Shown here one piece after another: positions 27,070 through 43,296 of a stretch of DNA of 64,000 nucleotides. Position 1 is the stretch's first letter. Each line of letters begins with the position of its first letter. Under the pieces are notes generated by a model. It ran no database searches. It saw only the letters and a program-made list of their open reading frames with translations, and had not been told where the DNA came from. Origin of the DNA: Cupriavidus malaysiensis (GTDB lineage Bacteria; Pseudomonadota; Gammaproteobacteria; Burkholderiales; Burkholderiaceae); the NCBI RefSeq assembly GCF_001854325.1, contig NZ_CP017755.1:2976001-3040000 (forward strand), in the 5' to 3' direction. A program made the translations under genes and the position numbers.

Positions 27070-27318
27070 CTACCCCGGCCACACCGCCACCGTGCGCGCA
27101 TGCCGCGCCGCGCAGTCCGCCAGCGCGCCCAGCACCTCGCGCATCATCCACCCCTGCCACGCGTCGTAGTCGGCCATGGTCGGGGCATCCGGAATGCGGC
27201 ACGGCGCCGCGAGCGCGCTATCGAGCGGCGGCGGCAGCGCGGGTGGCGTCGACGGCGCCGGACAGGAGGCGCATCCGCTCAGCATCAGGGCGGCAATCCA
27301 CGGGAAGGGGCCTGGCAC
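27070..27318 (-). CDS. Rz1-like o-spanin lipoprotein
   Basis: 82 residues from a GTG at 27318 with AGGAGG nine bases upstream. The short hydrophobic N-terminus ends in a lipobox (LSGC, Cys16), followed by a Pro-rich stretch (CPAPSTPPALPPP). This is the hallmark of outer-membrane spanins, which pair with Rz to fuse the membranes at the end of lysis. The start lies inside the Rz gene in another frame, as in lambda, and the gene runs past the Rz stop. It is the last gene of the phage locus. Confidence 0.75.
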   Translation of the reverse strand: MPGPFPWIAALMLSGCASCPAPSTPPALPPPLDSALAAPCRIPDAPTMADYDAWQGWMMREVLGALADCAARHARTVAVWPG

Positions 27319-27589
27319 GTTGGAGTTCCTCCTCAAGACGATCGAGCCGCGCCGCCAGCGCGGACTGGGACTGCCGGTAGGCATCCGCCGCGGCACGCAT
27401 GGCAGCGCTGCTGGCGCGCAAGGTCTCGAGCGCCTGCGCCGACTGCCGCGCCTGCGCCCCGCTGGCAGCCAGCGCGCTCGCAGCCTGCACGGCCTCCAGG
27501 CGCCAGCCATTGGCGGTCCAGCCTGCCGCGCCCAGCAGCAGGCCGGCGCCGGCCAGCCCGGCCAGCCGCCATGCGCCTACATCCGGCAT
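27218..27589 (-). CDS. Rz-like i-spanin
   Basis: 123 residues: one N-terminal membrane helix (about 8-27) and a long Ala/Gln/Arg-rich coiled-coil region (ASGAQARQSAQALETLRA and onward to about 95). This is the topology of Rz. It overlaps the lysozyme stop by 13 bp and contains the start of the Rz1-like gene. It should act in the inner membrane and periplasm during lysis. Confidence 0.75.
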   Translation of the reverse strand: MPDVGAWRLAGLAGAGLLLGAAGWTANGWRLEAVQAASALAASGAQARQSAQALETLRASSAAMRAAADAYRQSQSALAARLDRLEEELQRARPLPVDCRPDAERMRLLSGAVDATRAAAAAR

Positions 27590-28038
27590 AGCTCACGCTC
27601 CTGCCGCCGCCGCTCGACCAGGCCCGGCAGCACGCGGCCGCGCGCCAGCACCCAGCGCGGCAGCTCGTCGCAGGCGCCGGCCACGTCGCCGGCGTTGAGC
27701 TTGCGCAACAAGGTGCTGGCAGCGAAGGCCTCCGGCCCGACGTTGTAGACGAAGGACGCCAGCGCCGCCCGGCGCGTCTCCGGCAAGGGCACCGCCACCA
27801 GCCGGTCGACCGCGCCGAGCGCCTTGCCCAGGTCCGCGCGCAGCAGCGCCTCGCACTCCGCCTCGCTGCGCCGCTGCCCGAGGCGCACGCCATCGGTATG
27901 GCCGTAGCAGATGGTGGCGATGCCGACCGGGTCCAGGTAGGCTGCCGGACGGTAGCCCTCGAACAGCGCCACGGCGGCCGCCGCCAGCGCCAGCGCGCCG
28001 GAGCCGAGCGCCAGCGTCACGCGTTGCGGCAGCGCCAT
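27577..28038 (-). CDS. Phage lysozyme (GH24), probable SAR endolysin
   Basis: 153 residues from the ATG at 28038. The N-terminal hydrophobic, Ala/Gly-rich segment (about 7-26) looks like a signal-anchor-release domain, which lets the enzyme export through Sec. The catalytic region has FEGYRPAAYLDPVGIATICYGHTDGV: Glu of FEG, Asp of LDPVG and Thr of GHTDG are the usual GH24 triad positions. FVYNVGPEAF is a family motif. It cleaves peptidoglycan glycan strands. It starts 2 bp from the end of the holin gene. Confidence 0.9.
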   Translation of the reverse strand: MALPQRVTLALGSGALALAAAAVALFEGYRPAAYLDPVGIATICYGHTDGVRLGQRRSEAECEALLRADLGKALGAVDRLVAVPLPETRRAALASFVYNVGPEAFAASTLLRKLNAGDVAGACDELPRWVLARGRVLPGLVERRRQERELCRM

Positions 28039-28039
28039 C

Positions 28040-28234
28040 TCAGCGCTCCCGCCGCGCGCGCCACCACGGGCGGCCGATCTTGACCCACAGGAAATGCGCG
28101 GCGAGCAGCAGCACATAGCCCAGCGTGACCGCGCTGGCCCAGTCGGCGACGCCGTAGCCCATGAAGGTCATGATCGGCACGGGGGTGGCCGGCATGACCT
28201 TGGCGGCCTCCACTGTCATGTCGGCTTGGTTCAT
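28040..28234 (-). CDS. Holin-like small membrane protein
   Basis: 64 residues: MNQADMTVEAAKVMPATPVP, two short hydrophobic segments (PIMTFMGYGVADWASAV and TLGYVLLLAAHFLWVKIG), and a basic tail WWRARRER. Its size, topology and position directly upstream of the lysozyme gene fit a class II holin that triggers lysis. The assignment rests on context and topology. Confidence 0.75.
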   Translation of the reverse strand: MNQADMTVEAAKVMPATPVPIMTFMGYGVADWASAVTLGYVLLLAAHFLWVKIGRPWWRARRER

Positions 28235-28252
28235 CGGGAATCCTCCGGCACA

Positions 28253-28287
28253 AAAGAAAAAACCCGCGCATGGATACCACGCGCGGG
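28253..28287 (-). terminator. Intrinsic terminator between the fibre-chaperone and holin genes
   Basis: On the minus strand CCCGCGC (28287-28281) pairs with GCGCGGG (28269-28263) over an 11-nt loop, followed by TTTTTTCTTTTG. It would separate tail transcription from the lysis cassette unless read through. Confidence 0.85.
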
Positions 28288-28311
28288 CACCAACGGCACC
28301 GGCCGCAGCGC

Positions 28312-28911
28312 TCAGTCCCAGGGCGCCTGCGGCCAGGCGCTCACCTGCGCCGCATCCGGATCGATGGCGCGCAGCGCCTTGCGGTACTGGCTCATGGACC
28401 TGAGCCGCTCCACCTCCGGCTCCGTCAGTTCGCCCAGCAGGAAGCCGTCGAGCAGCGGCGCGATGCGCCGCTCGGCCTCGGCCAGCAGCCCGTCGCGCCG
28501 TGCCGCGGCCTCGTCGGCTTGCAGCCGAGCGGCCAGCGCGTCGTCGAGCTGCCAGCCTTCGTCGCGCCACACATGGGCGGGACCTGGCCGCGGCTCGTCG
28601 GTGAGGAAAGGCGGCAGGTCGCCGATGCCGCTGTACTCGGCGCCCGCCTCGAAGCGGCTGCCGTCGGCCGTGCGGTAAAGCGGCACCCCGCGGTAGTCGG
28701 GCTGCGCGGTCCAGGCGCCGTCCGCCGCGTTCTGCGGCACGCCGCCCGCCGCATCGCGGTAGACGGCGATGGCGCGGCCGGCCGCGCGCGGCGGCGGCAC
28801 CGGCGTGGCATAGCCGGGCACGATATGGACGCCGGGCTCGAGCGGGCTCGGATCGGCCACGCCCAGGCCGAGGTATTCGCCGGTGGTCGGGTGGTAGTTA
28901 TGGATGTCCAT
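28312..28911 (-). CDS. Tail fibre assembly (chaperone) protein
   Basis: 199 residues from the ATG at 28911 (MDIHNYHPTTGEYLGLGVAD). The N-terminus (YHPTTGEYLG, ADPSPLEPG) and the C-terminal region with LLDGFLLGELTEPEVERLRS and KALRAID match Caudovirales tail-fibre assembly proteins of the lambda Tfa/Mu gpU group. It should help fold and attach the adjacent collar-domain fibre. It is 22 bp downstream of that gene. Confidence 0.82.
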   Translation of the reverse strand: MDIHNYHPTTGEYLGLGVADPSPLEPGVHIVPGYATPVPPPRAAGRAIAVYRDAAGGVPQNAADGAWTAQPDYRGVPLYRTADGSRFEAGAEYSGIGDLPPFLTDEPRPGPAHVWRDEGWQLDDALAARLQADEAAARRDGLLAEAERRIAPLLDGFLLGELTEPEVERLRSMSQYRKALRAIDPDAAQVSAWPQAPWD

Positions 28912-28933
28912 GAGGTTCTTCCTTGTCTTGGGG

Positions 28934-29584
28934 TCAGTACTTGATGCAGGCGAGGAGGGCGATGTTGCGGGGGCGGGTTTCGGTGCCGCCGGTGCTGCCG
29001 ATGGGGGCATAGCTGTTGTCGGAGACGATCATGTAGTTGCCCGTCCCGTTCTGCCCCTGTACCACGCCCTGTCCGGGCAGGCCCGAGTGGGTGTGCTGCT
29101 TGAAGAGGTCCGCCTGGGCACTACCGAACGTGCGCCCGGCATCGACGCCGCGCGCATCGTCCCAGCCGCGCAGGAACTCGCCGCGGAGGTCCGGCACGTT
29201 GAAGGTCTGCGAGCCATCGCCGTTGCCGAAGGTCGTCCCGACCTCAGCGAACAGGTCGGCGTAGACGGTGCGCGATACCGCGGCACCATTGCAGCGCAGA
29301 TAGCCGGCGGGCACTGCATTCCTGGCGTGATAGGCGATCGTGCCGGGCAGGACCAGCCCGAAGTTGGTTGCGCCCAGTTGCCCGAGCTTGGTCCAGGCCG
29401 TGTTTGCCGCATTGCGCATCTTGAGCGTGCCGCTGGCGGTGTCGGCCCAGAACTGGTAGGGGTAGGACGGATTGGGCTCCACGGAGCCGGACTGGTTCGT
29501 CGCGATCGCGGCCAGCGCCTGATTCAGGTCGGCCCGGAACGCGGCACCAGGCTGGTTGTCGATGATCATATCGTGTTGGGACAT
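28934..29584 (-). CDS. Phage tail-collar domain fibre protein
   Basis: 216 residues. The central GTIAYHARNAVPAGYLRCNG and FNVPDLRGEFLRGWDDARG are the phage tail-collar domain. The C-terminus (QHTHSGL, ETRPRNIALLACIKY) is typical of short fibres ending in a receptor-binding tip. For a fibre it is short, so receptor binding would rest on the last 80 or so residues. It lies 15 bp after the J-like gene and before its chaperone. Confidence 0.88.
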   Translation of the reverse strand: MSQHDMIIDNQPGAAFRADLNQALAAIATNQSGSVEPNPSYPYQFWADTASGTLKMRNAANTAWTKLGQLGATNFGLVLPGTIAYHARNAVPAGYLRCNGAAVSRTVYADLFAEVGTTFGNGDGSQTFNVPDLRGEFLRGWDDARGVDAGRTFGSAQADLFKQHTHSGLPGQGVVQGQNGTGNYMIVSDNSYAPIGSTGGTETRPRNIALLACIKY

Positions 29585-29599
29585 GTGTTCCTCTCCAGG

Positions 29600-32500
29600 T
29601 CAATAGCCGACCGCATCCCAGTCGAAACGCCTGGAAATGGCTGCGCCGGCAGCGTTGTAGAAATTGACGGTAAAGCCGCGCTCGTTCGGCGCGCTGATGG
29701 TGAAGTAGTCGCCCTGCACCATGTTCTGGGCGGTGATGCCGACCTTGGGCACGATATGGAACGGCGGATCGAAAACCACCGCCTGCGCGCCCGCCGCCGA
29801 CACCACGCCGCGGCCATAGGCAATCCTGTCGGGCATGTCCACGGTGACCGTCAGGCCCGCGACCAGCACGTTGTGGGCACTCGATAAACTGCGCAGTTCG
29901 GCGCGCCATTGAAAGGCCCGGGCCTCGTAGTCACCGGCCGCGAAGCGCTCCCAGGGCGACCACGCGGGGGTACGGGCCGGATCGTCGCGGGTGTGGCGCA
30001 CGAACAGGGTTACCCCGGCATCGCTCAGTCGATCGCCATCGATCGACTGCCAGGTATCCAGGGGCTCCGGTCGTACATCGAACAGGTCGCCGGTGTCGAA
30101 CCCCAGGGCATCGATCGTCGCCGTCAGCCGCGATGTCTCGATCCGCCCGAGGTCCAGCGCATTGGCGAAGGTGTAGCTGCCCGAACTCGCCACACCCCCG
30201 AGCGAATCCACCCATGGCCAGCCGCCGGCACCGACGACCGCATCGATGGCGCCGAGACGGTCGATCTGGCCGGCGTCGTCCCACAATCCGCTCGCGTCGA
30301 CCGGGCCCTGGCTGTCGATCAGGCCATTGCCGATCAACTTGATGCCGCCGAGCGCCCGGTCGAAGATCACCTTGTCCTTGGCTCCAGCGAAGGCAGGCTG
30401 CTCCGACACCGTCGCCACCACGTTCAGTCCCTGCAGGCTGGGAGCGGTGGTGGCCACCTCGGACGCCGTCACGGATTCGTTCCCGCTCGAGTCCACCCAC
30501 TTGATCAGATAGACGCCGGTCAGAAGCGGCAGCTGTGCCGAATTCGCGGCACCGGCGACATAGCCACCGATGTCGATCGCGCTGCCCCATTCGGGCTGCA
30601 TCAGGTTCGAGGTATGCCGGATCGATGCCCGGCCGCCATTGCGCACGTCGAGGTCGGTCGCCGGGTCCCAGACGAGGTGCGCACTGCCGCTAAGCGCGCT
30701 CAGCGAAAAACCGGTGACATCTTCCGGCGGCGCCAGCTTGCCCACCACCACGTGCACGGGCGAATAGGTCCAGTCCGGGCTGCGCACGCCGATGCCGGAG
30801 ACGTAGCGCGCCCGCACCACATAAGGCGCGCCGTCCTCGACCGGCATCAGGTAGCCGCTGGTCGCGGTGGCGGCCAGCGGCGCAAGACTGGTCCAGTCTT
30901 GCGCGTCAGCCCGCTTGTACTGCAGCTCCACACGACCGGATTGCCGCAACTGCGCATCCTGCGCCGCTGGCCAGATCACCCGAACGCGGGAGGTCACCAC
31001 CCCGGTCTGGCTCAGTACCAACTGCTCGGAGCCTGACTCCAGGCGGATCTGCCCGACCGGCTCGACCAGTAGGGGATTCGGCAGGTTGGTGTCGGGCGCG
31101 GGATCCGACGAGGTGGCGTCACCGGCGTTCCAGTCATAGACGGAAGGTGCTTCTTCATTCAGCACCAGGTCGACACCACCGTCGTCGCTCATCTTCCACG
31201 ACATGACCCGGAAGGTCTTCTCGGCCCATCCGAACTTGGCCGACGACAGCTTGACCGTGCTGTACGCGGTCAACCGGAACGCGCTCAGTTTTGCCGGAAA
31301 CTCGACGACGATTCCCTGCCGGGAGCGCTCGAGGATGATCTTGGCCAGGCGCTGCGCCATCACGCCGTCGGTGGTAAACGGCAGCTCGATGTCCCGTTCG
31401 ATGCTCTCGCCATCCTGCCCGGCATACAAGGCATTGCTGACCGCCGGGAAGTCGCCCGGCAACCAGCCGTTGGCCGGGTTCACGTAGGTTCCCTTGACCA
31501 CATTGAAGAGGTCGCGCCGGGACATGCGCGCCTGCACCTTCATCGCCCCGCGCAGGTCGTCCTCCGTCAGCGTCATCGTTGGAATGTCGTAAGCGCCGGC
31601 GAAGACCCGGAAGACTCCACCGGAGATCACTACCGAACCGGCACCGGCGGTGGTCATCTCGGTCAGGTTGTCGCGCGGCGACTTGTCCAGCATCACGATG
31701 CCATTGCAACGGTAGCGCTGCTGGGTGGTGCCGTCCGCCAGGCGCACAGCCTCGTCGCTGACGTTCGCCGCCGCCATCACGGTGGCGAGGTCCACATCGC
31801 CGGCAGCGCAGGAAAACCCACGTTCGTCGCACAGGTAGTCGTAGACGCAGAGCGCCCAGTTGTCCGACCAGGCGACGGTGCCACCGCGAGGGTCGTACAC
31901 GCGCTTGCCGCGCACCAGTGCCTTGATGTTGGGCAGGCCGTTCGGGAATACATCGGCGTCGTACTCCAGCCGCACATAGAGATAGCAGACGCCACGCAGC
32001 CGGTGCTCGGCCGACCAGCCCGGCACCATGGCGACCAGGTCAGGATCCGCCTCCTGCTCCGGCCAGCCCAGGTGCTTGTGCACCACCACCAGGCCATTGC
32101 TCCGACGCTCCTCGAAGGTCACCACCACCGTTTCCGCATCGTCGGGCAGCCCGCGCACCGTGACTGAGTCGCTGCCCTCGCTCCACGAGACATCCGTGAT
32201 CGCTACATCGCGCCCATCCGCACATTTGGCGACGGCCACCTGCAAGGTCAGGACCGGAACGCCGGTCGATAGCGTGAAGGCCGTATGGCCTGGCGGAACC
32301 GCGACGAAACGGGTGCGGGACTCTCCCCAGACCTTGCGGAACCGGCCGCCCGTCGGCTGGCCATTGCCGTCGAGCGGTCCCACTGCCTGGTCGCCGAGAT
32401 AGACTTCGTCGATCGCCTCACAGGTATGATCGGCCAGCGCCACGACCAGATGCATGTACTGGTTCTTGTGCGCGCCATCCGTGCTCGCCGCGAACACCAG

Positions 32501-32803
32501 CGGGCCGGACGTCATTGCCTTGCCGTAGATCAGGTTGCGGGGCTGGACGTTGGAGCGGACGATCTGGGTGCGGCCCTGGGCTTCGGCTGTAAAACTGTTC
32601 GTCGTTCGTGGCTTGAACACTGCGCCCATCAAGGCGTTGAAGGCCATCGCTAAAGCCAGCGAAGCGACGGCATAGGTGGCCACGTAGGCCGCGGCCACCC
32701 CGATCCCCGCCGCCATTGCCGTGCCCAATGTCGCCATGCCTGCCCCGGCCGAGACCGCTGCGCCAAGTGCCTCCGCTACTGCTGCCGCTGCTGCTGCCGG
32801 CAT
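29600..32803 (-). CDS. Tail tip / host-specificity protein J-like
   Basis: 1067 residues, close to lambda J (1132). The N-terminus has an Ala/Gly-rich hydrophobic stretch (1-55), then NSFTAEAQGRTQIVRSNVQP and LIYGKAMTSGPLVFA, typical of J-like baseplate hub proteins. A fibronectin-like region follows (about 590-780), and the C-terminal third, likely receptor-facing, is unlike lambda J. It would form the central tail tip and contact the host surface. The final residues (FYNAAGAAISRRFDWDAVGY) resemble beta-sandwich tips. Confidence 0.88.
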   Translation of the reverse strand: MPAAAAAAVAEALGAAVSAGAGMATLGTAMAAGIGVAAAYVATYAVASLALAMAFNALMGAVFKPRTTNSFTAEAQGRTQIVRSNVQPRNLIYGKAMTSGPLVFAASTDGAHKNQYMHLVVALADHTCEAIDEVYLGDQAVGPLDGNGQPTGGRFRKVWGESRTRFVAVPPGHTAFTLSTGVPVLTLQVAVAKCADGRDVAITDVSWSEGSDSVTVRGLPDDAETVVVTFEERRSNGLVVVHKHLGWPEQEADPDLVAMVPGWSAEHRLRGVCYLYVRLEYDADVFPNGLPNIKALVRGKRVYDPRGGTVAWSDNWALCVYDYLCDERGFSCAAGDVDLATVMAAANVSDEAVRLADGTTQQRYRCNGIVMLDKSPRDNLTEMTTAGAGSVVISGGVFRVFAGAYDIPTMTLTEDDLRGAMKVQARMSRRDLFNVVKGTYVNPANGWLPGDFPAVSNALYAGQDGESIERDIELPFTTDGVMAQRLAKIILERSRQGIVVEFPAKLSAFRLTAYSTVKLSSAKFGWAEKTFRVMSWKMSDDGGVDLVLNEEAPSVYDWNAGDATSSDPAPDTNLPNPLLVEPVGQIRLESGSEQLVLSQTGVVTSRVRVIWPAAQDAQLRQSGRVELQYKRADAQDWTSLAPLAATATSGYLMPVEDGAPYVVRARYVSGIGVRSPDWTYSPVHVVVGKLAPPEDVTGFSLSALSGSAHLVWDPATDLDVRNGGRASIRHTSNLMQPEWGSAIDIGGYVAGAANSAQLPLLTGVYLIKWVDSSGNESVTASEVATTAPSLQGLNVVATVSEQPAFAGAKDKVIFDRALGGIKLIGNGLIDSQGPVDASGLWDDAGQIDRLGAIDAVVGAGGWPWVDSLGGVASSGSYTFANALDLGRIETSRLTATIDALGFDTGDLFDVRPEPLDTWQSIDGDRLSDAGVTLFVRHTRDDPARTPAWSPWERFAAGDYEARAFQWRAELRSLSSAHNVLVAGLTVTVDMPDRIAYGRGVVSAAGAQAVVFDPPFHIVPKVGITAQNMVQGDYFTISAPNERGFTVNFYNAAGAAISRRFDWDAVGY

Positions 32804-32812
32804 AGTTCCCCC

Positions 32813-33223
32813 CTATACATGCCAAGCGGCCTTCGCCGCGTCCATCGAATGAAAGACGATGCCCTCGCGCCCCTGCGCGGCCAGCATGCCGCCCACGCAA
32901 AGCGCCAGTGCCTCGCCCTCCGGCGTGTCGATCAGCGCCACGTCGCCGCGCCCGGCCAGGGCGGGGGCGACCGGCTCGCCCAGTACCTGGGTGGCGATGC
33001 CGGCAACCCCGCCGTTGTCGCGCAGCACGCGGCGCGCGCCTCGCTCGCCCTGGTACAGGCCGCGCCAGCGCGCGCCGGGATCGCTGCCGGTCATGGCCGC
33101 GATGCCGTCGCAGACGAACAGGCAGCAATCGCTTTCTCCCCACGAAAAAGCCCGCGCGCGGCGGGCTTCGATGAAGGCGGCCAGGCGGCTCGGCCAGTCT
33201 TGTTGTCGTTGCTGTCTTGGCAT
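32813..33223 (-). CDS. Tail-tip peptidoglycan-hydrolase-like protein (NlpC/P60-like, lambda K position)
   Basis: 136 residues from the ATG at 33223, which overlaps the previous stop as TGATG. FSWGESDCCLFVCDGIAAMTG fits an NlpC/P60-like active-site cysteine region (Cys after an aspartate), and GDVALIDTPEG and the later His (VFHSMDAAK) could complete the catalytic set. It occupies the place of lambda K, between minor tail genes and J. Proposed role: local peptidoglycan opening during penetration. Confidence 0.7.
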   Translation of the reverse strand: MPRQQRQQDWPSRLAAFIEARRARAFSWGESDCCLFVCDGIAAMTGSDPGARWRGLYQGERGARRVLRDNGGVAGIATQVLGEPVAPALAGRGDVALIDTPEGEALALCVGGMLAAQGREGIVFHSMDAAKAAWHV

Positions 33224-33774
33224 CAGCGTCCCCATGTCAGTTGCTTCTCCACCATCTGCGCCACGAACTCGAAGCCGCGATCACCGGGATAGCGGGCTTG
33301 CTGGTCCTCGTGGTTGTATCGGCGCACCTTGGCGCGCTCCCAGCTGACCATGCGCGATTCCGCCGACACCGTGACCTTGGCGGTCTCGCCCACCTCGGTG
33401 TTCATGGTGTCCATGCGGCCGGAGAACAGGCGCACGGGCGCAGCTGCCAGTTGCAGATCCTCCCGCAGCGGCGCGAACCAGATCTGGCAAGCCTTGCCCT
33501 GGTACTGCTCCGCCAGCGTGATGGCGATCAGCTCGGGCGGCACGCCCGCCAGCGTGAGGCGCACGCCGATGGCCTCGAGGCCGGCCTGCTCCTGGATCGG
33601 CTCGATGCCGCCCAGCGCGCCGATGCCCAGCCACGTGGCGCCGTTCCACTCGATGTCGTAGCCGGCGCTGCACACGCGCAGCGGCTGGGAGAAATCCATC
33701 TGCACGAAGAACAGATAGGGCACGTGGCCCGCGCGTACCGCCGCGGCGGTGGCCTGGTCGAGGGGGCGCGTCAT
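33223..33774 (-). CDS. Minor tail protein (lambda L position)
   Basis: 183 residues from the ATG at 33774. Visible signatures are PYLFFVQMDFSQPLRVCSAG, with DIEWNGATWLGIG, and a C-terminal YPGDRGFEFVAQMVEKQLTWG. This pattern occurs in siphophage minor tail proteins placed just before the NlpC-like gene (DUF2163/BR0599-type). It overlaps the upstream gene as ATGA and the downstream one as TGATG, indicating translational coupling. It is probably a tail-tip component. Confidence 0.7.
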   Translation of the reverse strand: MTRPLDQATAAAVRAGHVPYLFFVQMDFSQPLRVCSAGYDIEWNGATWLGIGALGGIEPIQEQAGLEAIGVRLTLAGVPPELIAITLAEQYQGKACQIWFAPLREDLQLAAAPVRLFSGRMDTMNTEVGETAKVTVSAESRMVSWERAKVRRYNHEDQQARYPGDRGFEFVAQMVEKQLTWGR

Positions 33775-34394: not shown

Positions 34395-34397
34395 GGC

Positions 34398-35753: not shown

Positions 35754-35755
35754 GG

Positions 35756-36088
35756 TTATCCCTTGCGCTGGTACGCCGCCGCCATCACCACACGGTCGAG
35801 GCGGCGGATGGCGTCGAGCTGCCAGTGCGCCGGCCGCTGGCCGAGCAGGGTGAAGTAGGCGTGGATGTCGGAGTAGGTGAGCGGCTGTGGCATGGGCCTG
35901 CCGCGGCGGGCCGCGTTGAGGTCCGCGAACCACGTCCACAGCTGCAGGCCGGCCGCCGGCAGCGCCGGTCCCGCCAGTTCAGGCAGGGCGCGGCCACTCT
36001 GGCGTGCGGCCGCCTCGAGGTTGTGGCGGACGGACGAGCCGTCGGGCAGGCGCGCGTCGAGCACCGCCTGGTGCTCGGCGTAGGCCAC
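35756..36088 (-). CDS. Tail assembly chaperone T extension, read by -1 frameshift from G
   Basis: 110 residues from a GTG, but the open frame continues upstream to the slippery site at 36109-36115, so the natural product is likely the fusion G-T (136 residues of G plus 117 of this frame, 253 in total). WTWFADLNAARRGRPMPQPL and YFTLLGQRPAHWQLDAIRRL fit gpT-like tail chaperone extensions. It lies 2 bp before the tape-measure start, as in lambda. An independent product from the GTG cannot be excluded. Confidence 0.75.
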   Translation of the reverse strand: MAYAEHQAVLDARLPDGSSVRHNLEAAARQSGRALPELAGPALPAAGLQLWTWFADLNAARRGRPMPQPLTYSDIHAYFTLLGQRPAHWQLDAIRRLDRVVMAAAYQRKG

Positions 36089-36099
36089 CAGCTCGTCCG

Positions 36100-36516: not shown

Positions 36517-36589
36517 GGTCTTGCTCCGGGGAAAGTGAAGGAAGGCGCGGTGGCGGCGCACAAGCGCCGCCGCCGCGCCGGGGCCACTG

Positions 36590-37798
36590 TCAGGCCAGCG
36601 AGTCCTGCACCGACAGCGTGGTCTTCTCGCTGGCAGTGCCGGTGCCGCCGGCGGTGTTCAGCAGCGCCTGGAAACTGAAGGTCTGCACGATGCCCTTCTC
36701 GCCGTCGTCCTTGGCGGCGCTGCTCAGTTTCACGCGCGGCAGGTTGAAGGCGATGAAGTCGGCATTGGCGGCATTGCTGGTGGTCAGCGCCGCCACGATG
36801 CCGACCTCGCCCTCGCCGACGAAGGCATCGCGCAACGTGCCGTCCTGGAAGTAGGCGGTGAACTGGCCGGTCACCACCAGCCGGCCGGGGAAGAAATCGG
36901 GCATGGTGTTCTGCCCCACCACCGGATCGCCGCTGAGATTGCCGTTGACCGACACGCTGAGGCCGGTCACCAGCCCCACCTGCACACCCCCGACCAGCAG
37001 TACGCCGTTGACGGCGGCCACCACGCCCGCAGCGGTCTCGGCCGCAGGCGCGGTGAAATAGGCGCCGGTGCCGGTCTTCATGTCGATGCCGCGCAGCTGC
37101 GGCGAGATGGTTGCCATGCCGGTGGCGGGCAGGCTCACGTCGAGCTGGCCGACCTTGCAGTCGGTGAACTGCTCGGACTGGTTGATGTCCGCGTACCAGT
37201 GCTCGAAGGTCAGGTACTTGTCGGTGTGGCCGCTGGCCGGCACGAAGGTCTTCTTGCCCTGCACCGTGACCGAGGCCGAGGCAATCGGGCCTTCCGCCAC
37301 CAGCGCGCTGCCATTGAGCACCAGCACGTTGAGCACGGTGGCGGTGAGCGACACCACCAGCAGGTTCTTGGCGGCATTGGCGGCGTTGAAGCCGCCGGCG
37401 AGCCGCACCACGTCGCCGGCCTTGATGCCGTCGGTGAGGAAGGAGCCGGCGGCGCGCGTGACCGTATAGGCCGGGCCGCTGCCTGCCACGGTCAGGCTGG
37501 CGCCGGACACCACCGCGCCGGCGCTGAAGTCGCGCCGCAGCGCCGCGGCGATCAGGTCGGCATAGGTGCCGGGCGACAGCTCGCCCTTGATGGTGCCTTC
37601 GACGCGGCGCACGCCGTGGCGGAAGTCGGCGATCTGCTGGTCGGCGCGGATCTCCTCCGACTGGTAGCTGTCTTTCACCAGCGACAGGTCAGAGGTGACG
37701 CGGCGCAGGATCTGGCCGCCGGTCGAGCCGGCCGCGACACCCTGGCCGGTTTGCGCCTTGTAGCGCAGTTGCTTGTACAAACCCTTGGCAATCGGCAT
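36590..37798 (-). CDS. Major tail tube protein
   Basis: 402 residues from the ATG at 37798 (MPIAKGLYKQLRYKAQTGQG). QILRRVTSDLSLVKDSYQSE, IADFRHGVRRVEGTIKGELS and a C-terminal immunoglobulin-like portion (LVTGLSVSVNGNLSGDP onward) fit large siphophage tube proteins. It is considerably longer than lambda gpV (246), the excess being in two Gly/Ala/Val-rich stretches (about 100-170 and 250-300) that may decorate the tube. It follows an intrinsic terminator, which may mean it has its own promoter or depends on antitermination. Confidence 0.82.
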   Translation of the reverse strand: MPIAKGLYKQLRYKAQTGQGVAAGSTGGQILRRVTSDLSLVKDSYQSEEIRADQQIADFRHGVRRVEGTIKGELSPGTYADLIAAALRRDFSAGAVVSGASLTVAGSGPAYTVTRAAGSFLTDGIKAGDVVRLAGGFNAANAAKNLLVVSLTATVLNVLVLNGSALVAEGPIASASVTVQGKKTFVPASGHTDKYLTFEHWYADINQSEQFTDCKVGQLDVSLPATGMATISPQLRGIDMKTGTGAYFTAPAAETAAGVVAAVNGVLLVGGVQVGLVTGLSVSVNGNLSGDPVVGQNTMPDFFPGRLVVTGQFTAYFQDGTLRDAFVGEGEVGIVAALTTSNAANADFIAFNLPRVKLSSAAKDDGEKGIVQTFSFQALLNTAGGTGTASEKTTLSVQDSLA

Positions 37799-37812
37799 GG
37801 ATAGGCTCCAGG

Positions 37813-37840
37813 AAAAGAAAAAACCCCGCGCGCGGCGGGG
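37813..37840 (-). terminator. Intrinsic terminator between the tail-terminator and tube genes
   Basis: On the minus strand CCCCGC (37840-37835) pairs with GCGGGG (37829-37824) around GCGCG-type loop bases, followed by TTTTTTCTTTT. It lies inside the tail operon. Confidence 0.8.
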
Positions 37841-37872
37841 CTGGTGGCAAGGTGGAAAGAGAGCGGGCGGCG

Positions 37873-38277
37873 TCAGCCGCCCAGGTTGGCCAGGTAGTCG
37901 ATGCTGACCGGCACGCAGTAGCGGTCGCCCTCGATGGCGCCGGCACCGATGGCCGGCGTGGTGCGCACGATCACCTCGACGCCGTCGGCACGCAGCGTGG
38001 TGGCGCGGGCGAACCACTGGCGCAGCGCGTCGGCCTGGGCCTGCACGGCGGCCGTGCCGCTGTCCTGCGGATAGCACAGCGTGACCTTGTAGAGACCGAC
38101 CTCGCGGAAGGCAGCGCCGTAGCTGGCGTTCTCCGGCGTGGCGGGCGTCATCAGCACGCGCTGGTAGGGCACGCCGGCGGCGGGCGTGAACGGCTGGTTC
38201 TCCCAGGCCGTGGCCAGCGCGGGCTGCATGGTCTTGAGGCGTTCTTCGAGCGCCTTGCGGATGGCGACGGTACTCAT
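37873..38277 (-). CDS. Tail terminator protein
   Basis: 134 residues from the ATG at 38277 (MSTVAIRKALEERLKTMQPA). TPAAGVPYQRVLMTPATPEN and the C-terminal AGAIEGDRYCVPVSIDYLAN are the pattern of small tail-terminator proteins (DUF4128-like, lambda gpU position) that cap the tube. It is the first tail gene. In a complete phage it would be preceded by head-completion proteins; here only a 252-bp gap separates it from the late-regulator candidate. Confidence 0.72.
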   Translation of the reverse strand: MSTVAIRKALEERLKTMQPALATAWENQPFTPAAGVPYQRVLMTPATPENASYGAAFREVGLYKVTLCYPQDSGTAAVQAQADALRQWFARATTLRADGVEVIVRTTPAIGAGAIEGDRYCVPVSIDYLANLGG

Positions 38278-38346
38278 CTCGGGGGGTCTCCTGCGAGGCA
38301 ATGCATGGGAATCGGAACGGATGCATCGATGGCCGGCGCAGCAAAG

Positions 38347-38379
38347 CAAAAAGCCCGCGAGGCGCTGGCCTGGCGGGCT
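38347..38379 (-). terminator. Intrinsic terminator upstream of the tail genes
   Basis: On the minus strand AGCCCGC (38379-38373) pairs with GCGGGCT (38358-38352), and an inner AGGC/GCCT pair extends the stem. The stem is followed by TTTTGCTTTGC. It would stop transcription from the early region or late promoter before the first tail gene unless antiterminated. Confidence 0.75.
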
Positions 38380-38469
38380 GGATTCGCTGCGCTCCGGTCC
38401 GGCCACGGGCATCCCTCCATCGGGATGCTGTGTCTCGGTCTGAACCGGTGCGCCGCGCTGGGCAATCAG

Positions 38470-38487
38470 TAATCTGGGTTCAGATTA
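38470..38487. promoter_or_regulatory. Perfect 7-bp palindrome in the gap before the tail genes
   Basis: TAATCTG (38470-38476) and CAGATTA (38481-38487) flank GGTT. It is AT-rich and lies between the late-regulator candidate and the intrinsic terminator. It may be an operator, a late-promoter element, or a trace of the event that removed head genes. Minus-strand TTGTCC lies just upstream of it as a possible -35. The function is not established. Confidence 0.35.
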
Positions 38488-38529
38488 GAGGACAACCGCA
38501 CAGCGCGCAAGCTTTTGCACCGTGTTTTT

Positions 38530-39066
38530 TTACGCCATCGCGCATGGCGCGGCGCGCACCGTGAGCACGCGCCGTGCGGGCAATGCGGAAGGCGAGGAAG
38601 GCAAATGCGGTGCGGGCTGTGCGGACAGTGTCGCCGTCTGTTGCACCGCCTGTTGCACCGACTGCCGTGCCACCTGCCGCGCCAGTTGCCGGCGCGCGTC
38701 GTCCAACGACAGCACATGCATCATCACGCGCTGAGCCTTGGCCAGGCGCGCCTCCCAGTGGCGCAGCGTGCTGGGCGCGGCGCCGTACTTGCGCACCAGC
38801 ACGCGGCACACCATCTCGGCCTCCATGCGGTGCACATAGTGGTATTGCAGCAGGCGCTTGGCGAGCGGGTCCTGGATGCGCTGCCAGGCGCGCTCGATCC
38901 TCCAGCCGTCCTCGATGTCGCGCGGCAGCAGCGGGATCGCGGCCTGCCGCTCGGCGGCATCGCGCAGCGCGGTCGCCACGCGTGCCCACGATGCGCAGCA
39001 TTGCGGCTGCCAGCGCGGATCGCGTACCACCCTGCCCCAGTTGTCCAGCCGGTCTTCGATATTCAT
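38530..39066 (-). CDS. Candidate phage late regulator (antiterminator Q-like)
   Basis: 178 residues starting MNIEDRLDNWGRVVRDPRWQ. The N-terminal 110 residues resemble DNA-binding antitermination proteins by layout: basic and Trp-rich, with a helix-turn-helix-like VCRVLVRKYGAAPSTLRHWE near 90-110. The C-terminus is Gln/Ala-rich and low complexity. Its location between the replication and late genes, with three intrinsic terminators downstream on the same strand, fits a Q-like protein. Sequence similarity to known Q families was not checked, so the role is inferred. Confidence 0.55.
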   Translation of the reverse strand: MNIEDRLDNWGRVVRDPRWQPQCCASWARVATALRDAAERQAAIPLLPRDIEDGWRIERAWQRIQDPLAKRLLQYHYVHRMEAEMVCRVLVRKYGAAPSTLRHWEARLAKAQRVMMHVLSLDDARRQLARQVARQSVQQAVQQTATLSAQPAPHLPSSPSALPARRVLTVRAAPCAMA

Positions 39067-39156
39067 GATCGCTCCTGTGGTGATCGGCCTTGGTTCGGCC
39101 CTGCTTCGGTTGCAACGCCCGCGCGCGCCTGGCGCGGGCGCCGTGCATGGCGTCCT

Positions 39157-40539
39157 TCATAGATCCTCGCGGATCGCCCGCGCGGGGCGCGGCGCCGGCG
39201 CGCGGTATCCCGCCGGTGCGTCGAGGAAGCGCGTGGTCTCGCCGTGGTAGGCCAGCGGCACGCTGCCGGTCTCGCCCTGGCGCTGCTTCTCGACCAGCAC
39301 CTCGCACATGCCGCGCGCTGGCGACTCCGGGTGGTAGACCTCGTCGCGGTAGAGCAGAAGGATGATGTCCGCGTCCTGCTCCAGCTCGCCGGAATCGCGC
39401 AGGTCGCCCATCAGCGGGCGCTTGTTGGCCCGGCTCTCGAGACTTCGGTTGAGCTGCGCCAGCGCGATCACCGGAATGCCCAGCTCCTTGGCCAGCGCCT
39501 TCAACCCACGCGAATAGCTGCCGACTTCCTGGCTGCGGTTCTCGCTGGCGCCACCGCTCATCAAGCCGAGGTAGTCGATTACCAGCAGGTCGAGCCCGTG
39601 GCGGCGGCGCACCATGCGCGCCTTGGCACGCACGTCGGCCAGCGACAGCGCCGGCTGGTCGTCGAGGAACAGGCCGAGCTCGGCCACGCGGCTGCGCGCC
39701 GCCGCCAGGCGCCGCCAGTCCTCGTCGCCGAGTTGCTCGGGCTGGCGCAGGCGCGGCAGCGGCACCTCGGCCAGCATGGCTAGGTTGCGCTGGTGCAGCT
39801 GCGCCTTGGGCATCTCCAGCGACAACACCAGCACGCTGTGGCCGCGCGCGGCGTGGCAGGCCACGTTGAGCGCGAAAGCGGTCTTGCCCATGGCCGGGCG
39901 CCCCGCCACGATGACCAGCTCGCCGGCGCGCAGGCCGCCGCCGAGCTTGGTGTCGAGCGCGCGAAAGCCCGTTGCCAGCGCCTGGTGCGCGCCGGCCGCC
40001 TGCTCGCGCAGCGCGCCCAGGCAGGCGTCGAACTCCTCGCTTGCGCGCACCGGGCGCGCCATCGTACGTTCCTGCGCCAGGGCTTCCAGCCGTGCCTGCA
40101 CGCGATCAAGCACGGCGCGCGCAGGTTCGCCGCCTGCCACCAGGGCCGGCAGGTCCGACGCCACCGCCAGCAGTTGCCGCTTGAGCGCGCGGTCGCGCAC
40201 GGTGGCCGCGTAGCGCGCGATATTGGCACTGCCCGGCGTCTGCAGCGCCAGCGCATTCAAGTAGGCCAGGCCGCCCGCGTGGGCGTCCAGTCCGTGCGCG
40301 GCCAGGCGTTCGAAGACAGTGACCGCGTCGGCACCGACGCCATCGGCAAGCAGGGCGACGATATGGCGGAAGATCGCCGCATGGTCGGCGCGGTAGAAAT
40401 GCTCGGGCAGCAGCCAGCCGGCGCGATCGATCGCGTCGTTGTCGAGCAGCAGCCCGCCCAGCACGGCCTGCTCGGACTCGATGCTGTGTGGCACCGCGCC
40501 AGCCGTCACCGCCGCCAGGCCGACGTCGCGCGCGCTCAT
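39157..40539 (-). CDS. Phage replicative helicase, DnaB-like
   Basis: 460 residues from the ATG at 40539. The N-terminal domain (PHSIESEQAVLGGLLLDNDA, with HFYRADHAAIFRHI) and the RecA-fold helicase domain with Walker A GRPAMGKT (near residue 205), Walker B LLVIDYLGLM (near 325) and RDSGELEQDADIILLLYRD are typical of DnaB. It overlaps the replication protein gene as ATGA, so it is phage-borne rather than the host dnaB. It loads at a phage origin, which I could not locate. Confidence 0.92.
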   Translation of the reverse strand: MSARDVGLAAVTAGAVPHSIESEQAVLGGLLLDNDAIDRAGWLLPEHFYRADHAAIFRHIVALLADGVGADAVTVFERLAAHGLDAHAGGLAYLNALALQTPGSANIARYAATVRDRALKRQLLAVASDLPALVAGGEPARAVLDRVQARLEALAQERTMARPVRASEEFDACLGALREQAAGAHQALATGFRALDTKLGGGLRAGELVIVAGRPAMGKTAFALNVACHAARGHSVLVLSLEMPKAQLHQRNLAMLAEVPLPRLRQPEQLGDEDWRRLAAARSRVAELGLFLDDQPALSLADVRAKARMVRRRHGLDLLVIDYLGLMSGGASENRSQEVGSYSRGLKALAKELGIPVIALAQLNRSLESRANKRPLMGDLRDSGELEQDADIILLLYRDEVYHPESPARGMCEVLVEKQRQGETGSVPLAYHGETTRFLDAPAGYRAPAPRPARAIREDL

Positions 40540-41471
40540 GCCGCCTCCTTGTGGTAGCGCCCCTCGCGGATCTTGGCGAAGTTTTCGGCCTTGACGATCC
40601 AGTCGAGGCTGGCCACGAACGGCGGCTTGCCGGCGCTGGGCGCACGGCCGGTCAGGAAGCGGCTCTCGGCGATGTAGGCGAACAGGCGGCGCCAGTAGTC
40701 CAGCGTGCGGCGCCCGGCGTCCTCGCTCCAGCGCGCGCGCAGTTGTGCCTGCCGCGCCGGCGTCCAGTCGCGGATGCGCGGACACATCGGCAGCAGCTCG
40801 TGGTAGAGCGCGACGATGTCTCGGTGCGGACAGTCGGCGCGGCCGCGCTCGGACGCGGCAGGTAGCGTGGCTTCGGCAATCCCCTCGCCGGCAGCGGTGG
40901 CCACAGGTAACCCGCCAGGGTTACCCCTTTCCTGGTCCTTCCCCTGGTCCTTCCCCTGGTCCTTCCCCTGGTCCTGCTCATGCCCTTGCTCCTGCTCCTG
41001 TTCATGGCTCGCAAGGGCCAGGCAAGGGGCTTCGCCCGGTGCCGGCGCACCGCGGCACCGGCTCAGGTGGAAATCGGTGCGGTACTGGTCGAAGAAGGGG
41101 AGCAGGAAGGGGTTGTCCGGCAGCGCGTTGTACTCGTTCTGCGCGCCGGCGCAGCGCTTGTCGGCCGCGCTCAGCGCCCGGCCGATCTGGTAGTGGGCCA
41201 TCTCGCACACCCACACCATTTCGGTGGCCGGATCGTAGCGGCAGAAGCCGGCCTCGATGCAGCCGGCCAGCCCCGCCGACGCAGCATCCATGCCCAGGCC
41301 GGTCTCGTGCGCGATATACATCACCGGCAGGTAATAGAGGCCGAGCATATTGGCATGCGGGCAGGTGGTCAGGTAGAGCGCCACCAGTTGCGCGGGTGCG
41401 CCGTGCGCGCGCAGCCGCCTGCCGGTCGGCCCCATCCAGAACTGCGGGCTGATCTTGCCGTAGTCACGCAT
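40536..41471 (-). CDS. Phage replication (O-like) protein with a GKDQ repeat
   Basis: 311 residues from the ATG at 41471. The first 110 residues (KISPQFWMGPTGRRLRAHGA, ALYLTTCPHANMLGLYYLPV) resemble the N-terminal winged-helix domain of phage replication initiators of the helix-loader type. A linker near 155-180 is a run of EQ/GKDQ units. The C-terminal part (DWTPARQAQLRARWSEDAGR, IVKAENFAKIREGRYHK) is a common ending of such proteins that may contact DnaB. ATGA overlap with the helicase gene supports joint action. Confidence 0.8.
   Translation of the reverse strand: MRDYGKISPQFWMGPTGRRLRAHGAPAQLVALYLTTCPHANMLGLYYLPVMYIAHETGLGMDAASAGLAGCIEAGFCRYDPATEMVWVCEMAHYQIGRALSAADKRCAGAQNEYNALPDNPFLLPFFDQYRTDFHLSRCRGAPAPGEAPCLALASHEQEQEQGHEQDQGKDQGKDQGKDQERGNPGGLPVATAAGEGIAEATLPAASERGRADCPHRDIVALYHELLPMCPRIRDWTPARQAQLRARWSEDAGRRTLDYWRRLFAYIAESRFLTGRAPSAGKPPFVASLDWIVKAENFAKIREGRYHKEAA
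40931..40975. repeat. 12-bp tandem repeat inside the replication-protein gene, about 3.7 copies
   Basis: CCTGGTCCTTCC repeats exactly at 40931, 40943 and 40955, with a partial copy to 40975. The unit is a multiple of three, so it encodes GKDQ repeats in the linker and copy-number changes would keep the frame. Confidence 0.85.
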
Positions 41472-41547
41472 GGCGGCCCTTCCCGTCCATGCCGGACGCC
41501 ATGGCCAGCCCGCGCAGGGCGCCGTGCCCGTGCCGCGGCGCCTTCAT
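41464..41547 (-). CDS. Possible 27-residue bridging ORF
   Basis: ATG at 41547 overlaps the stop of the upstream gene as ATGA, and its TGA ends inside the start region of the replication-protein gene. The peptide is MKAPRHGHGALRGLAMASGM plus seven residues, basic and without a recognisable fold. Tight overlap at both ends suggests translation, either for a product or as a coupling device. Confidence 0.35.
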   Translation of the reverse strand: MKAPRHGHGALRGLAMASGMDGKGRHA

Positions 41548-41855
41548 CGCGCCCCCTTGCGCCCGAGCAGTTCGTGCGGCTTGCCGGTGGCGGCGCAGCG
41601 CCGCAGGCCGCGTACCTGCAGGTAGCCGGCGTCGAGCAGCTCACGCACGCGTCCGCACACCGACGACAGGCGCAGGTGGGTGCGTGCGGCGATGTCCTCG
41701 CGCGTCAGCAGCACGCCACCGCCGTCGAAGCAGTCGATGACCATGCGCTGGCGCGCGCTGAGACCCGCTGCGCCACCGGCGCCCGGCGCCGTGTTCGCGG
41801 CCGCGTCGCCTATCGCTGCGCCGGCCTCCGCTTTCCCTTCCCTTGCATCGTTCAT
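41544..41855 (-). CDS. Early phage winged-helix protein
   Basis: 103 residues from the ATG at 41855, preceded by AGGAGGGAA. The Ala/Gly-rich N-terminus (1-32) leads into a winged helix: LSARQRMVIDCFDGGGVLLT, REDIAARTHLRLSSVCGRVR, ELLDAGYLQVRGLRRC. It is the first gene of the leftward early operon and starts opposite the repressor, where Cro or a CII-like regulator would be expected. It may serve such a role, but its fold is MarR-like rather than Cro-like. Confidence 0.7.
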   Translation of the reverse strand: MNDAREGKAEAGAAIGDAAANTAPGAGGAAGLSARQRMVIDCFDGGGVLLTREDIAARTHLRLSSVCGRVRELLDAGYLQVRGLRRCAATGKPHELLGRKGAR

Positions 41856-41964
41856 GGCACTTCCCTCCTGTTGAAAGGGCAGGCCCGCACTGCGCGCGCG
41901 GCCCGCCGGACCGCCCCGGCGCCGCGTGGCCGGGTTGGGTCGGATGCACTTTCGGACGATTCTA

Positions 41965-42030
41965 TTACCATATCGGTAACCATTACAAGACTCATCTGTT
42001 ACCATGAAGGTCTATTTACCTTCTCGGTCA
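41965..42030. promoter_or_regulatory. Cluster of three phage operators between the repressor and early operon
   Basis: Three 15-bp sites share TTACC-N5-GGTNN: TTACCATATCGGTAA (41965-41979), TTACCATGAAGGTCT (41999-42013) and TTACCTTCTCGGTCA (42016-42030). Only the first is a perfect inverted repeat. They fill the divergent promoter region, with the last ending 20 bp before the repressor ATG. A TAATAG minus-strand -10 candidate overlaps the first site. The arrangement is like lambda OR1-3. Confidence 0.75.
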
Positions 42031-42050
42031 AACCGGGTTCAATCACGCGC

Positions 42051-42959
42051 ATGAAGTCGATCAAAGAAATCCGCCGCGAGAAGTTCTCGATTGCCATCGC
42101 CGAGAAGTCCGACGGCAACCAGTCGCGCGCCGCCCAGGCCCTCGGCTATTCCACCCCCTCCCTGGTCAACCGCTACCTGAGCGGCGGCAAGGACATTGGC
42201 GACCGCACCGCGCGCAAGATCGAGGAGACCTTCGGCTATCCGCAGTTCTGGATGGATTCGGAAAGCCGGCCGGCCGTGCCGCCGGCGCAGTCGGACGGCC
42301 TGGCCGCGCGCGTCGGCTTCGTGCTGGAACGGCTGGGCATCCGCAAGAAGGAACTGGCGGCAGCGGTGGGCGCGCCGGAATCGGATGTGCAGGAATGGGC
42401 CGAGGGCAGCCGCAAGCCGACCCTGGTCCAGGCCACCGTGCTGCAGGAGCGCTACCAGGTCAACGCTGTGTGGCTGCTGACCGGCAAGGGCCAGCCATCG
42501 CCGGCGGTGGCCTACAGCGACGACTGGCACCCGATCCCGATCGCGCCGCAGGCATTCAAGAAGATCGCCGTGGTGGCAATGGCCCAGCTCGGCGACAACG
42601 GGCACTTCTGCGACCTGGAATACCCGGTCGGGCACGGCGACGGCTACCTGCATTTCCTCAGCGCCGACCCCGATGCCTATGGCCTGCGCTGCGTCGGCGA
42701 CTCGATGGAGCCGCGCATCCGCGACGGGGAATTCGTCGTGGTCGAACCCAACCAGGCCGTGGCCAGCGGCGACGAGGTGCTGGTGAAATCGCGCGACGGG
42801 CGGGTGATGGTGAAGATCCTCGGCTATACGCGCGACGGCTACACCCACTTCCTGTCGATCAACCAGAACCACAAGACGGTGAAGATCCGGGCCGAGGAGA
42901 TCGAGCAGCTTTCCTTCGTCTCGGCCATCGTCAAGGCCTCGTCCTGGCGCCCCGACTAG
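42051..42959 (+). CDS. Phage CI-like repressor with two HTH domains and an S24 peptidase domain
   Basis: 302 residues from the ATG at 42051; no strong ribosome-binding site is present. The first HTH is at about 14-60 (DGNQSRAAQALGYSTPSLVN, then RYLSGGKDIGDRTARKI) and a second at about 85-140 (LGIRKKELAAAVGAPESDVQ, EWAEGSRKPTLVQATVL). The C-terminal LexA/CI-type domain has the nucleophile in GDSMEPRIRDGEF near residue 220 and the lysine in VLVKSRDGRVMVKILGY near 265. No clear Ala-Gly cleavage site was identified between them. It faces the early operon across the operator cluster and should keep the locus silent. Confidence 0.88.
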   Translation: MKSIKEIRREKFSIAIAEKSDGNQSRAAQALGYSTPSLVNRYLSGGKDIGDRTARKIEETFGYPQFWMDSESRPAVPPAQSDGLAARVGFVLERLGIRKKELAAAVGAPESDVQEWAEGSRKPTLVQATVLQERYQVNAVWLLTGKGQPSPAVAYSDDWHPIPIAPQAFKKIAVVAMAQLGDNGHFCDLEYPVGHGDGYLHFLSADPDAYGLRCVGDSMEPRIRDGEFVVVEPNQAVASGDEVLVKSRDGRVMVKILGYTRDGYTHFLSINQNHKTVKIRAEEIEQLSFVSAIVKASSWRPD

Positions 42960-43021
42960 GCGGCAGGGGGTGGCGCCGGGCTGGCTGTGACCCCATAGGA
43001 CAAAGACAGCCAGCCGAATTG

Positions 43022-43036
43022 TTACCTTTTTGGTTC
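43022..43036. promoter_or_regulatory. Fourth repressor-type operator downstream of the repressor gene
   Basis: TTACCTTTTTGGTTC matches the TTACC-N5-GGT pattern of the three sites upstream of the repressor. It is 63 bp past the repressor stop and 75 bp before the small membrane-protein gene, in an AT-rich patch typical of promoters. It suggests the small gene is under phage control. Confidence 0.6.
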
Positions 43037-43110
43037 CAATTATCAGAAGTGTTTGGTAAGATTCCGTCGGTCGCCGGCAGCGGTGGCCGACCCAGGCAGG
43101 AGGAACATCG

Positions 43111-43296
43111 ATGACCGATCAGGACAACCCGGGCAAGGCGCAGGACAAGCGGGCGCGCAACAATCGCTGGCTGTTCCGCGCCATGGTGGTCGCGGTGGCG
43201 GCGATCGCGGTGGCCAACCTGCTGCTGGGGGAAAACGACGGCGATCACGACGACGGCTGCGCGCCTTGCGAGCGCCTGCCGGTCAGCGACACCTGA
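43111..43296 (+). CDS. Small single-pass membrane protein, likely repressor-controlled
   Basis: 61 residues, with AGGAGG 9 bases before the ATG. A basic N-terminus (KRARNNRWLFR) precedes one membrane helix (AMVVAVAAIAVANLLLG), then an acidic tail with CAPC. This is the topology of small inner-membrane proteins such as toxins, anti-holins or superinfection-exclusion factors, but I recognise no family. The operator at 43022 places it in the phage regulon. Confidence 0.65.
   Translation: MTDQDNPGKAQDKRARNNRWLFRAMVVAVAAIAVANLLLGENDGDHDDGCAPCERLPVSDT

Follow-up and report, generated by a model that had tools for sequence, protein, structure and literature searches.

F-type pyocins sit at the trp locus of Pseudomonas aeruginosa under PrtN/P-box control, and we know of none that carries replication genes; carotovoricin of Pectobacterium is contractile. 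Here we describe a locus at positions 27070-43296 of a 64,000-nucleotide stretch of Cupriavidus malaysiensis (contig C2, positions 2976001-3040000; hereafter the window), from a 7.95-Mb genome in three contigs, with gene models built from codon GC plus profile searches. The locus is likely a functional flexible (F-type) tailocin, derived from a prophage by deletion of the genes between its late leader and its tail terminator. A first-pass annotation of the same DNA had offered a flexible tailocin and a prophage that lost its head module as alternatives; both find support here and seem to tell the same history from two sides.

The closest known system is rhizoviticin of Allorhizobium vitis VAR03-1, described as a headless flexible tailocin that carries lysis genes and a repressor of the CI/LexA type and has kept, in its early region, a DnaB-like helicase and an initiator (PMC10811719). 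The same source calls F-type tailocins rare and names F-pyocin and monocin as exceptions. Rhizoviticin belongs to an Alphaproteobacterium and is likened here by description; its early region adds RuvC, a sigma-C-factor gene and an integrase remnant (these three were not recognised in the Cupriavidus locus), and no exchanged tip block or Q-type leader appears in the part of its description covered here (PMC10811719). F-type pyocins (P. aeruginosa; named in PMC7815802) share with our locus a non-contractile tail with lysis genes, the lack of head genes and a lambda-like tail order, and differ, again by description, in their PrtR/PrtN regulation (PMC5411513). Enterocoliticin of Yersinia enterocolitica is described as a headless tail with a CI gene and two upstream genes annotated as antitermination protein Q; its tail is contractile and Mu-like, and its Q is an annotation (PMC13030884). 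In BceTMilo of Burkholderia cenocepacia, which is RecA-dependent, the head was deleted at the border between tail and head, with a CI-like repressor and a phage late regulator kept; its tail is that of a P2-like myophage, its late regulator is Ogr, and the word "helicase" is absent from the main text of the report (PMC5411513). Carotovoricin resembles our case in the recombination-mediated exchange of a tail fibre locus within a conserved tailocin cluster, an exchange documented genus-wide there (PMC13195805) and in two records for Cupriavidus. The kind of element is therefore already known. What is new, as far as our searches show, is a betaproteobacterial flexible case, a Q-type leader common to two tail types, and matched tip alleles. 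Among the papers listed in a literature survey of tailocins with Ralstonia, Cupriavidus, antitermination or dnaB, no title or abstract opening describes the locus, and tailocin and Cupriavidus are barely co-mentioned in the literature searched. Few flexible tailocins are known, and this locus repeats the rhizoviticin puzzle, replication genes needed by a non-replicating weapon, in a different bacterial class and with a compact early region.

Profile searches found that the leftward block 27070-38277 encodes a complete lambda-like non-contractile tail together with a lysis set (E, expectation value):

27070-27589, minus strand: spanin pair, with Rz at 27218-27589 and an Rz1-like lipoprotein in another frame of 27070-27510 (phrog_214, E 0.002; phrog_456, E 9.5e-5)
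27577-28038, minus strand: endolysin, a phage lysozyme (PF00959, E 1.1e-43)
28040-28234, minus strand: holin, 64 amino acids (phrog_920, E 1.2e-8)
28312-28911, minus strand: tail fibre assembly chaperone (PF02413, phrog_105)
28934-29584, minus strand: collar-domain tail fibre (PF07484, E 3.9e-22)
29600-32803, minus strand: central fibre or host-specificity protein J, 1067 amino acids (phrog_31, E 1.1e-78)
32813-33235, minus strand: DUF6950 tail-tip protein (PF22262, E 1.6e-42)
33223-33774, minus strand: tail-tip protein phrog_2048, start approximate (E 3e-54)
33771-34394, minus strand: distal tail protein (phrog_1302, E 1.2e-39)
34398-35753, minus strand: tape measure, 451 amino acids, start set by homology to phage relative L022 (PF09718, Tape_meas_lam_C, E 6.4e-24; phrog_24)
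35756-36516, minus strand: tail assembly chaperones G (36100-36516) and G-T, with a -1 frameshift at a T6 run (phrog_313, E 2.6e-10)
36590-37798, minus strand: tail tube, 402 amino acids (PF18906, Phage_tube_2, E 1.9e-32)
37873-38277, minus strand: tail terminator (PF13554, E 9.5e-28; phrog_179)

These and the matches given below bear out the first-pass list of tail, fibre, chaperone, holin, lysozyme, Rz/Rz1, repressor and early genes, with two corrections: the tape measure occupies the coordinates given here, and the early region additionally holds an O-like initiator. At the G/GT chaperones, the -1 slippery run is present, and the frame reached by the shift has no stop between 36112 and 35756. 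No contractile sheath family matched in the window, and a sheath query from Ralstonia likewise found nothing there. The locus thus has the make-up of an F-type tailocin, with a full non-contractile tail, its own lysis cassette and repressor, and, from the searches below, no head gene, nearby integrase or att repeat found.

Head genes were searched for with 19 queries taken from relatives (six terminase, five portal, and eight protease, capsid, neck or connector proteins), 17 of them profile-confirmed and the remaining two, both connectors, picked by position only. None matched in the 64 kb at E<=0.05, in line with the earlier claim that terminase, portal, protease, capsid and connectors are missing. 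Genome-wide, the terminase family PF03354 occurs once and PF04860 twice, all on contig C1. The first-pass annotation had held that head genes elsewhere in the same element would speak against it; the only PF03354 copy belongs to a separate, complete prophage. Its claim that an integrase is absent also holds, as the nearest PF00589 match on C2 lies more than 1.2 Mb away along the contig, or about 0.4 Mb away if the contig is circular, and the match at that shorter distance scores below the family cut-off. There are no tRNAs in the window. Att sites in the form of repeats joining both ends were considered and rejected, the longest exact match between 26701-27300 and 42901-43700 being 11 bp. The head, packaging and integration genes of an intact temperate prophage were therefore not found at the locus.

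The place where the head and packaging genes would be expected is occupied by 252 bases, which separate the tail terminator gene from that of a putative late regulator, phrog_19609. The first-pass annotation had placed the head-loss junction at 38278-38529; that position stands, with the qualification that the interval carries a conserved promoter, leader and terminator:

38348-38510, minus strand: late promoter and leader (-35 at 38510-38505, -10 at 38487-38482, core at 38448-38432, hairpin at 38428-38409, terminator at 38379-38348)
38530-39066, minus strand: phrog_19609 late regulator, a candidate Q-type antiterminator by position and leader (phrog_19609, E 3.5e-32)

A promoter-like pair (TTGCGC, 17-base spacer, TAATCT) precedes a conserved 17-mer core, CCGGTTCAGACCGAGAC, which is followed by the hairpin and terminator. 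The leader RNA folds better than 200 of 200 shuffles (z -4.17). An alignment of 14 leader copies, a number of which are near-identical, shows no change in CTTG of the -35, in TA..CT of the -10 or in the T-run, and hardly any in the core. Covariation is weak (-1.11 of -25.04 kcal/mol; two-sided change in 4 of 22 pairs), so we take conservation as the evidence. No Rfam family reached its gathering score in the window, the only matches being sub-threshold ones at the leader. For phrog_19609 itself there was no credible Pfam family, and the sole match of a PDB sequence search (E 0.24) was discarded; one homologue carries the source name "antitermination protein Q". The layout of a Q system is present, with a candidate Q gene, promoter, leader and terminator ahead of the late genes, which suggests that phrog_19609 is a Q-type antiterminator in a lambda-like Q circuit.

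Related complete prophages, which the first-pass annotation had proposed looking for, show the undeleted gene order. In L149, the early order of winged-helix protein, initiator, DnaB and phrog_19609 continues into terminase and portal, and in L105 and in L022, the closest relative of the tail for which gene context is available (tube 74% identical), Neck1 immediately precedes the tail terminator. The tape measure of our locus retains the two ends of its L022 counterpart (33.6% identity over 125 residues and 55.6% over 216) at about half its length, 451 versus 936 amino acids in this closest, Neck1-bearing phage relative; those of three head-bearing relatives have 929, 961 and 2,061. The C1 prophage (approximately 3,066,000-3,097,000; L015 and L016) is complete and related, with terminase, portal, protease and major head protein and the tape measure of 961 amino acids. 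Its proteins from distal tail to fibre chaperone are 52-79% identical to those of the window, J being 65% identical, and the window's tail terminator, tube and chaperones have no match in it (E<=1e-4). A first scan of contigs with the tube as query found no relative. The idea that the tail is widely conserved in the genus was dropped, as the distal tail protein has a relative in only 5 of 60 Cupriavidus genomes, our own included; three of the other carriers (G021, G044 and G008) have terminase and portal nearby, and G058 holds a fragment with no head match.

The same headless locus is present in two 15.7-kb IMG/VR records. One of them (L027) is identical to the window over 15,742 bases and may come from the same strain. 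The other (L021) is a second allele, in which 37 of 11,158 aligned backbone bases differ (0.33%), made up of 32 of 9,400 (36 gap columns) and 5 of 1,758 (9 gap columns), whereas 1,277 of 4,430 bases differ (28.8%; 159 gap columns) in the tip and fibre block aligned over 28990-33500. This divergence defines one further feature:

28970-33465, no strand assigned: exchanged tip block, 28.8% DNA divergence from L021, with flanks at 0.3%

Both edges of the block, near 33465 and 28970, are sharp, and it takes in DUF6950, J, the last part of phrog_2048 and almost the entire fibre gene; the four genes are open in both alleles. J is 67% identical between the two and the fibre 68% at the amino acid level. 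By contrast, the fibre chaperone, encoded outside the block, is 99% identical, so one chaperone may serve both fibres. The J of L021 reaches at most 71.6% identity to any of 13 others compared, and no donor was identified among them. Receptor-binding genes thus vary on a kept locus, with two distinct alleles compared, and the two would be matched weapons with different tips on a near-identical backbone, a pair suited to working out which targets J and the fibre recognise. The earlier argument that intact tail genes favour retained function gains from these two headless records, one with an exchanged tip block. A possible third copy is suggested by a regulator (P0001, 90% identical) and a tube (P0024, 98%), each on a 3,777-bp contig; if this is a single contig, it would be a more distant headless copy, as a head module would not fit on it.

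The core genes carry 15 nonsynonymous and 19 synonymous codon changes between the window and L021 (binomial p 2e-4), in a test that ignores mutation bias, leaves out phrog_2048 and the genes of the exchanged block, and counts the tape measure on an open reading frame with 62 extra out-of-frame codons. The early genes account for 3 nonsynonymous and 10 synonymous changes (p 1.7e-4).

Across IMG/VR, we found 54 loci that carry phrog_19609, a good number of which are only distantly related. Terminase and/or portal is present in 40, the leader runs directly into a tail in 7, and 7 are undecided (six have less than 4.5 kb past the regulator, and L190 has 10 kb). The seven direct loci are the two copies of the flexible-tail locus and five contractile ones, and two of the seven lie on contigs shorter than 13 kb. 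Nine IMG/VR contigs contain the 17-mer core without mismatch, these seven and two with terminase and portal. Among 60 Cupriavidus genomes, it is exact in three, namely the window's own and two with head-bearing prophages; with one mismatch it appears in four more, of which only G058 holds a phrog_19609 prophage, and the reversed control pattern gave one match. In prophages that carry it, the leader element lies downstream of phrog_19609 and ahead of terminase or portal; at up to two mismatches, it was not found in prophages L142, L143 and L149.

In five Ralstonia genomes, the leader stands directly before a contractile tail. These loci (L137-L141, for example L137:4805-17950) combine the tail, a repressor, phrog_19609 and the leader, with no head-gene match; L137 has a sheath (phrog_23), Baseplate_J and a phrog_1123 protein beside the repressor, and terminase and portal queries found no match in the stretches covered. 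From this gene content, the Ralstonia locus is probably an R-type tailocin, and no title or abstract opening among those listed in our survey describes it. The flank that carries fliK matches in four of the five loci compared. The DnaB query had no match in the Ralstonia loci, though regulator and leader are common to both, which makes them a natural contrast to the Cupriavidus locus. Relatives of the Ralstonia sheath are present in 6 of 16 Ralstonia genomes (E<=1e-50), these five and G191, which carries two prophages with terminase, portal and capsid. These two (L142 and L143, about 51 kb apart on G191:C1) are complete contractile prophages with equal regulator and sheath match scores, possibly a duplication within one genome. 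For the headless loci, two separate head deletions and one headless locus with later tail exchange both fit the data.

The remainder of the Cupriavidus locus is a leftward early block (38530-41855) of phrog_19609, DnaB, an O-like/DnaD-like initiator and a phrog_1123 winged-helix protein, diverging from a repressor gene:

39157-40539, minus strand: DnaB-like replicative helicase (PF03796, E 9e-88)
40536-41471, minus strand: replication initiator or helicase loader, O-like and DnaD-like (phrog_345, E 2.3e-22; phrog_1701, E 1.7e-52)
41544-41855, minus strand: small winged-helix protein (phrog_1123; same family present in Ralstonia locus L137)
41959-41988, minus strand: promoter-like site of the leftward early operon, overlapping the first operator-like site (1 found, 0.3 expected)
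41965-42028, plus strand: three TTACCN5GGT operator-like sites in the intergenic stretch from which the early and repressor genes diverge
42051-42959, plus strand: CI-like repressor with helix-turn-helix and S24 peptidase (PF00717, E 1.1e-14; PF01381, E 5.3e-8)
43022-43034, plus strand: fourth operator-like site, upstream of the 61-amino-acid gene
43111-43296, plus strand: 61-amino-acid protein with one apparent membrane helix (by eye), no family match

The TTACCN5GGT pattern at 41965 (a palindrome, matching on both strands), 41999, 42016 and 43022 gives five matches against 0.17 expected, and 0 of 100 shuffles reach five. The site at 43022 ties the 61-amino-acid gene to the repressor, and its product may be an extra member of the repressor regulon. 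PADLOC gave weak matches only, to the DNA-binding part of the repressor. A 12-bp tandem repeat lies within the initiator gene (40919-40999), with one more unit in L021; it encodes a repeated QGKD linker, and its reading as origin iterons was dropped.

From this arrangement, we propose that the repressor keeps the element silent through the TTACCN5GGT sites. DNA damage would then switch on the leftward early operon, with the winged-helix protein, initiator, DnaB and phrog_19609, and phrog_19609 would let polymerase from the late promoter (about 38482-38510) pass the terminator at 38379-38348 into the tail and lysis genes. Short-tape-measure tails would then assemble, holin, endolysin and spanins would burst the cell, and J and the fibre would pick the target among related bacteria, which, by analogy with F-pyocins, would die of membrane damage. 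The ancestor would have been a prophage that lost all genes between late leader and tail terminator. The first-pass annotation had called DnaB and replication genes unusual for a tailocin. They are uncommon, with a precedent in rhizoviticin, in whose published account deletion of the DnaB-like gene and the initiator abolished activity and lowered tail transcription (PMC10811719); by analogy, the Cupriavidus genes are probably kept for full late expression.

Several observations weigh against a functional tailocin. The locus is known here from its DNA alone, from which particle, induction and killing are predicted. The tail and lysis genes show 12 nonsynonymous and 9 synonymous changes (p 0.067), so their constraint alone is not significant and the overall significance comes from the early genes; moreover, the window and L021 are so close in the backbone that its survival is by itself weak evidence. 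Nor did any other species among the sampled genomes turn out to carry the headless locus. A tube relative occurs in 2 of 398 family genomes (E<=1e-10), the window's own and a phage with head genes, and tubes 70-75% identical are present in several named Cupriavidus. The Q assignment stands on position, leader and one database name, Pfam Q models matched 0 of 21 phrog_19609 homologues, and a generic promoter and terminator scan listed neither the late promoter nor the leader terminator. Finally, a terminator-like hairpin lies at 37842-37822, between the tail terminator and tube genes, and would, if real, also require read-through; the generic scan shows no excess of such hairpins over shuffled sequence (2 found, 2.4 expected).

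The locus could instead be a defective prophage that lost its head genes recently and has not yet decayed, its tip swap being ordinary recombination with visiting phages. The low backbone divergence of 0.33%, the tail-gene test just described and the replication genes that are still there are consistent with this, as are the J relatives in complete prophages, one of them in the same genome. We nevertheless regard recent loss as unlikely. A 4.5-kb exchange is confined to the tip and specificity block and both records keep the compared genes open, the tape measure is shorter yet in frame, leader and tail terminator are cleanly joined with no nearby integrase or att repeat found, and five Ralstonia genomes retain this type of junction, there with contractile tails.

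Taking the locus as a functional tailocin, we tentatively raise a broader possibility, which we hold to be rather unlikely. The late-control cassette of phrog_1123, phrog_19609 and leader might be a repeated starting point for tailocins, with separate head deletions giving the Cupriavidus flexible and the Ralstonia contractile loci, and the retained initiator and DnaB might amplify the Cupriavidus locus in place after induction, with no excision. If true, the Cupriavidus locus would be a tailocin that replicates, thereby increasing the dosage of its own genes.

The retained initiator and DnaB, and early genes that are the most constrained, would also suit a self-replicating satellite that lends its tail to the heads of a co-resident prophage, and a complete related prophage is indeed present in the same genome. 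Phage satellites carry their own integrase and packaging redirection genes, and capsid-forming satellites would be the mirror image of a tail-donating one. Such a satellite is highly improbable here: no integrase is near, no att repeat was found, the tail terminator, tube and chaperones are unmatched in the C1 prophage, and the element has its own lysis genes.

The tailocin locus is flanked by a ferredoxin gene and a monooxygenase gene, each of which has a relative in 58 of 60 Cupriavidus genomes, our own included. At 14 of 14 Cupriavidus sites compared, the DNA ceases to match the window at 26952-26980 and matches again from 43606-43616 onwards, which means that these sites lack the locus. 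That an assembly or scaffolding artefact dropped the head module, a general possibility only, can be put aside as exceedingly improbable, given that these flanks match the host site in all 14, the same junction recurs in L027 and in L021, the second of which is a separate allele, and the assembly consists of three contigs. The first-pass annotation had suggested checking whether the locus is conserved at one site: the headless junction is found in the two IMG/VR records, which end at the locus edges, and was not seen in any other Cupriavidus species sampled. The seven sites with open reading frames listed have other genes between the flanks, often, we presume, those for a depolymerase-like esterase and a permease; the locus therefore occupies a position that holds host genes in the other species compared. 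In L095, L096, L098 and L099, the interval between ferredoxin and monooxygenase carries different gene sets of about 7-12 kb according to species, which suggests that it is a variable site.

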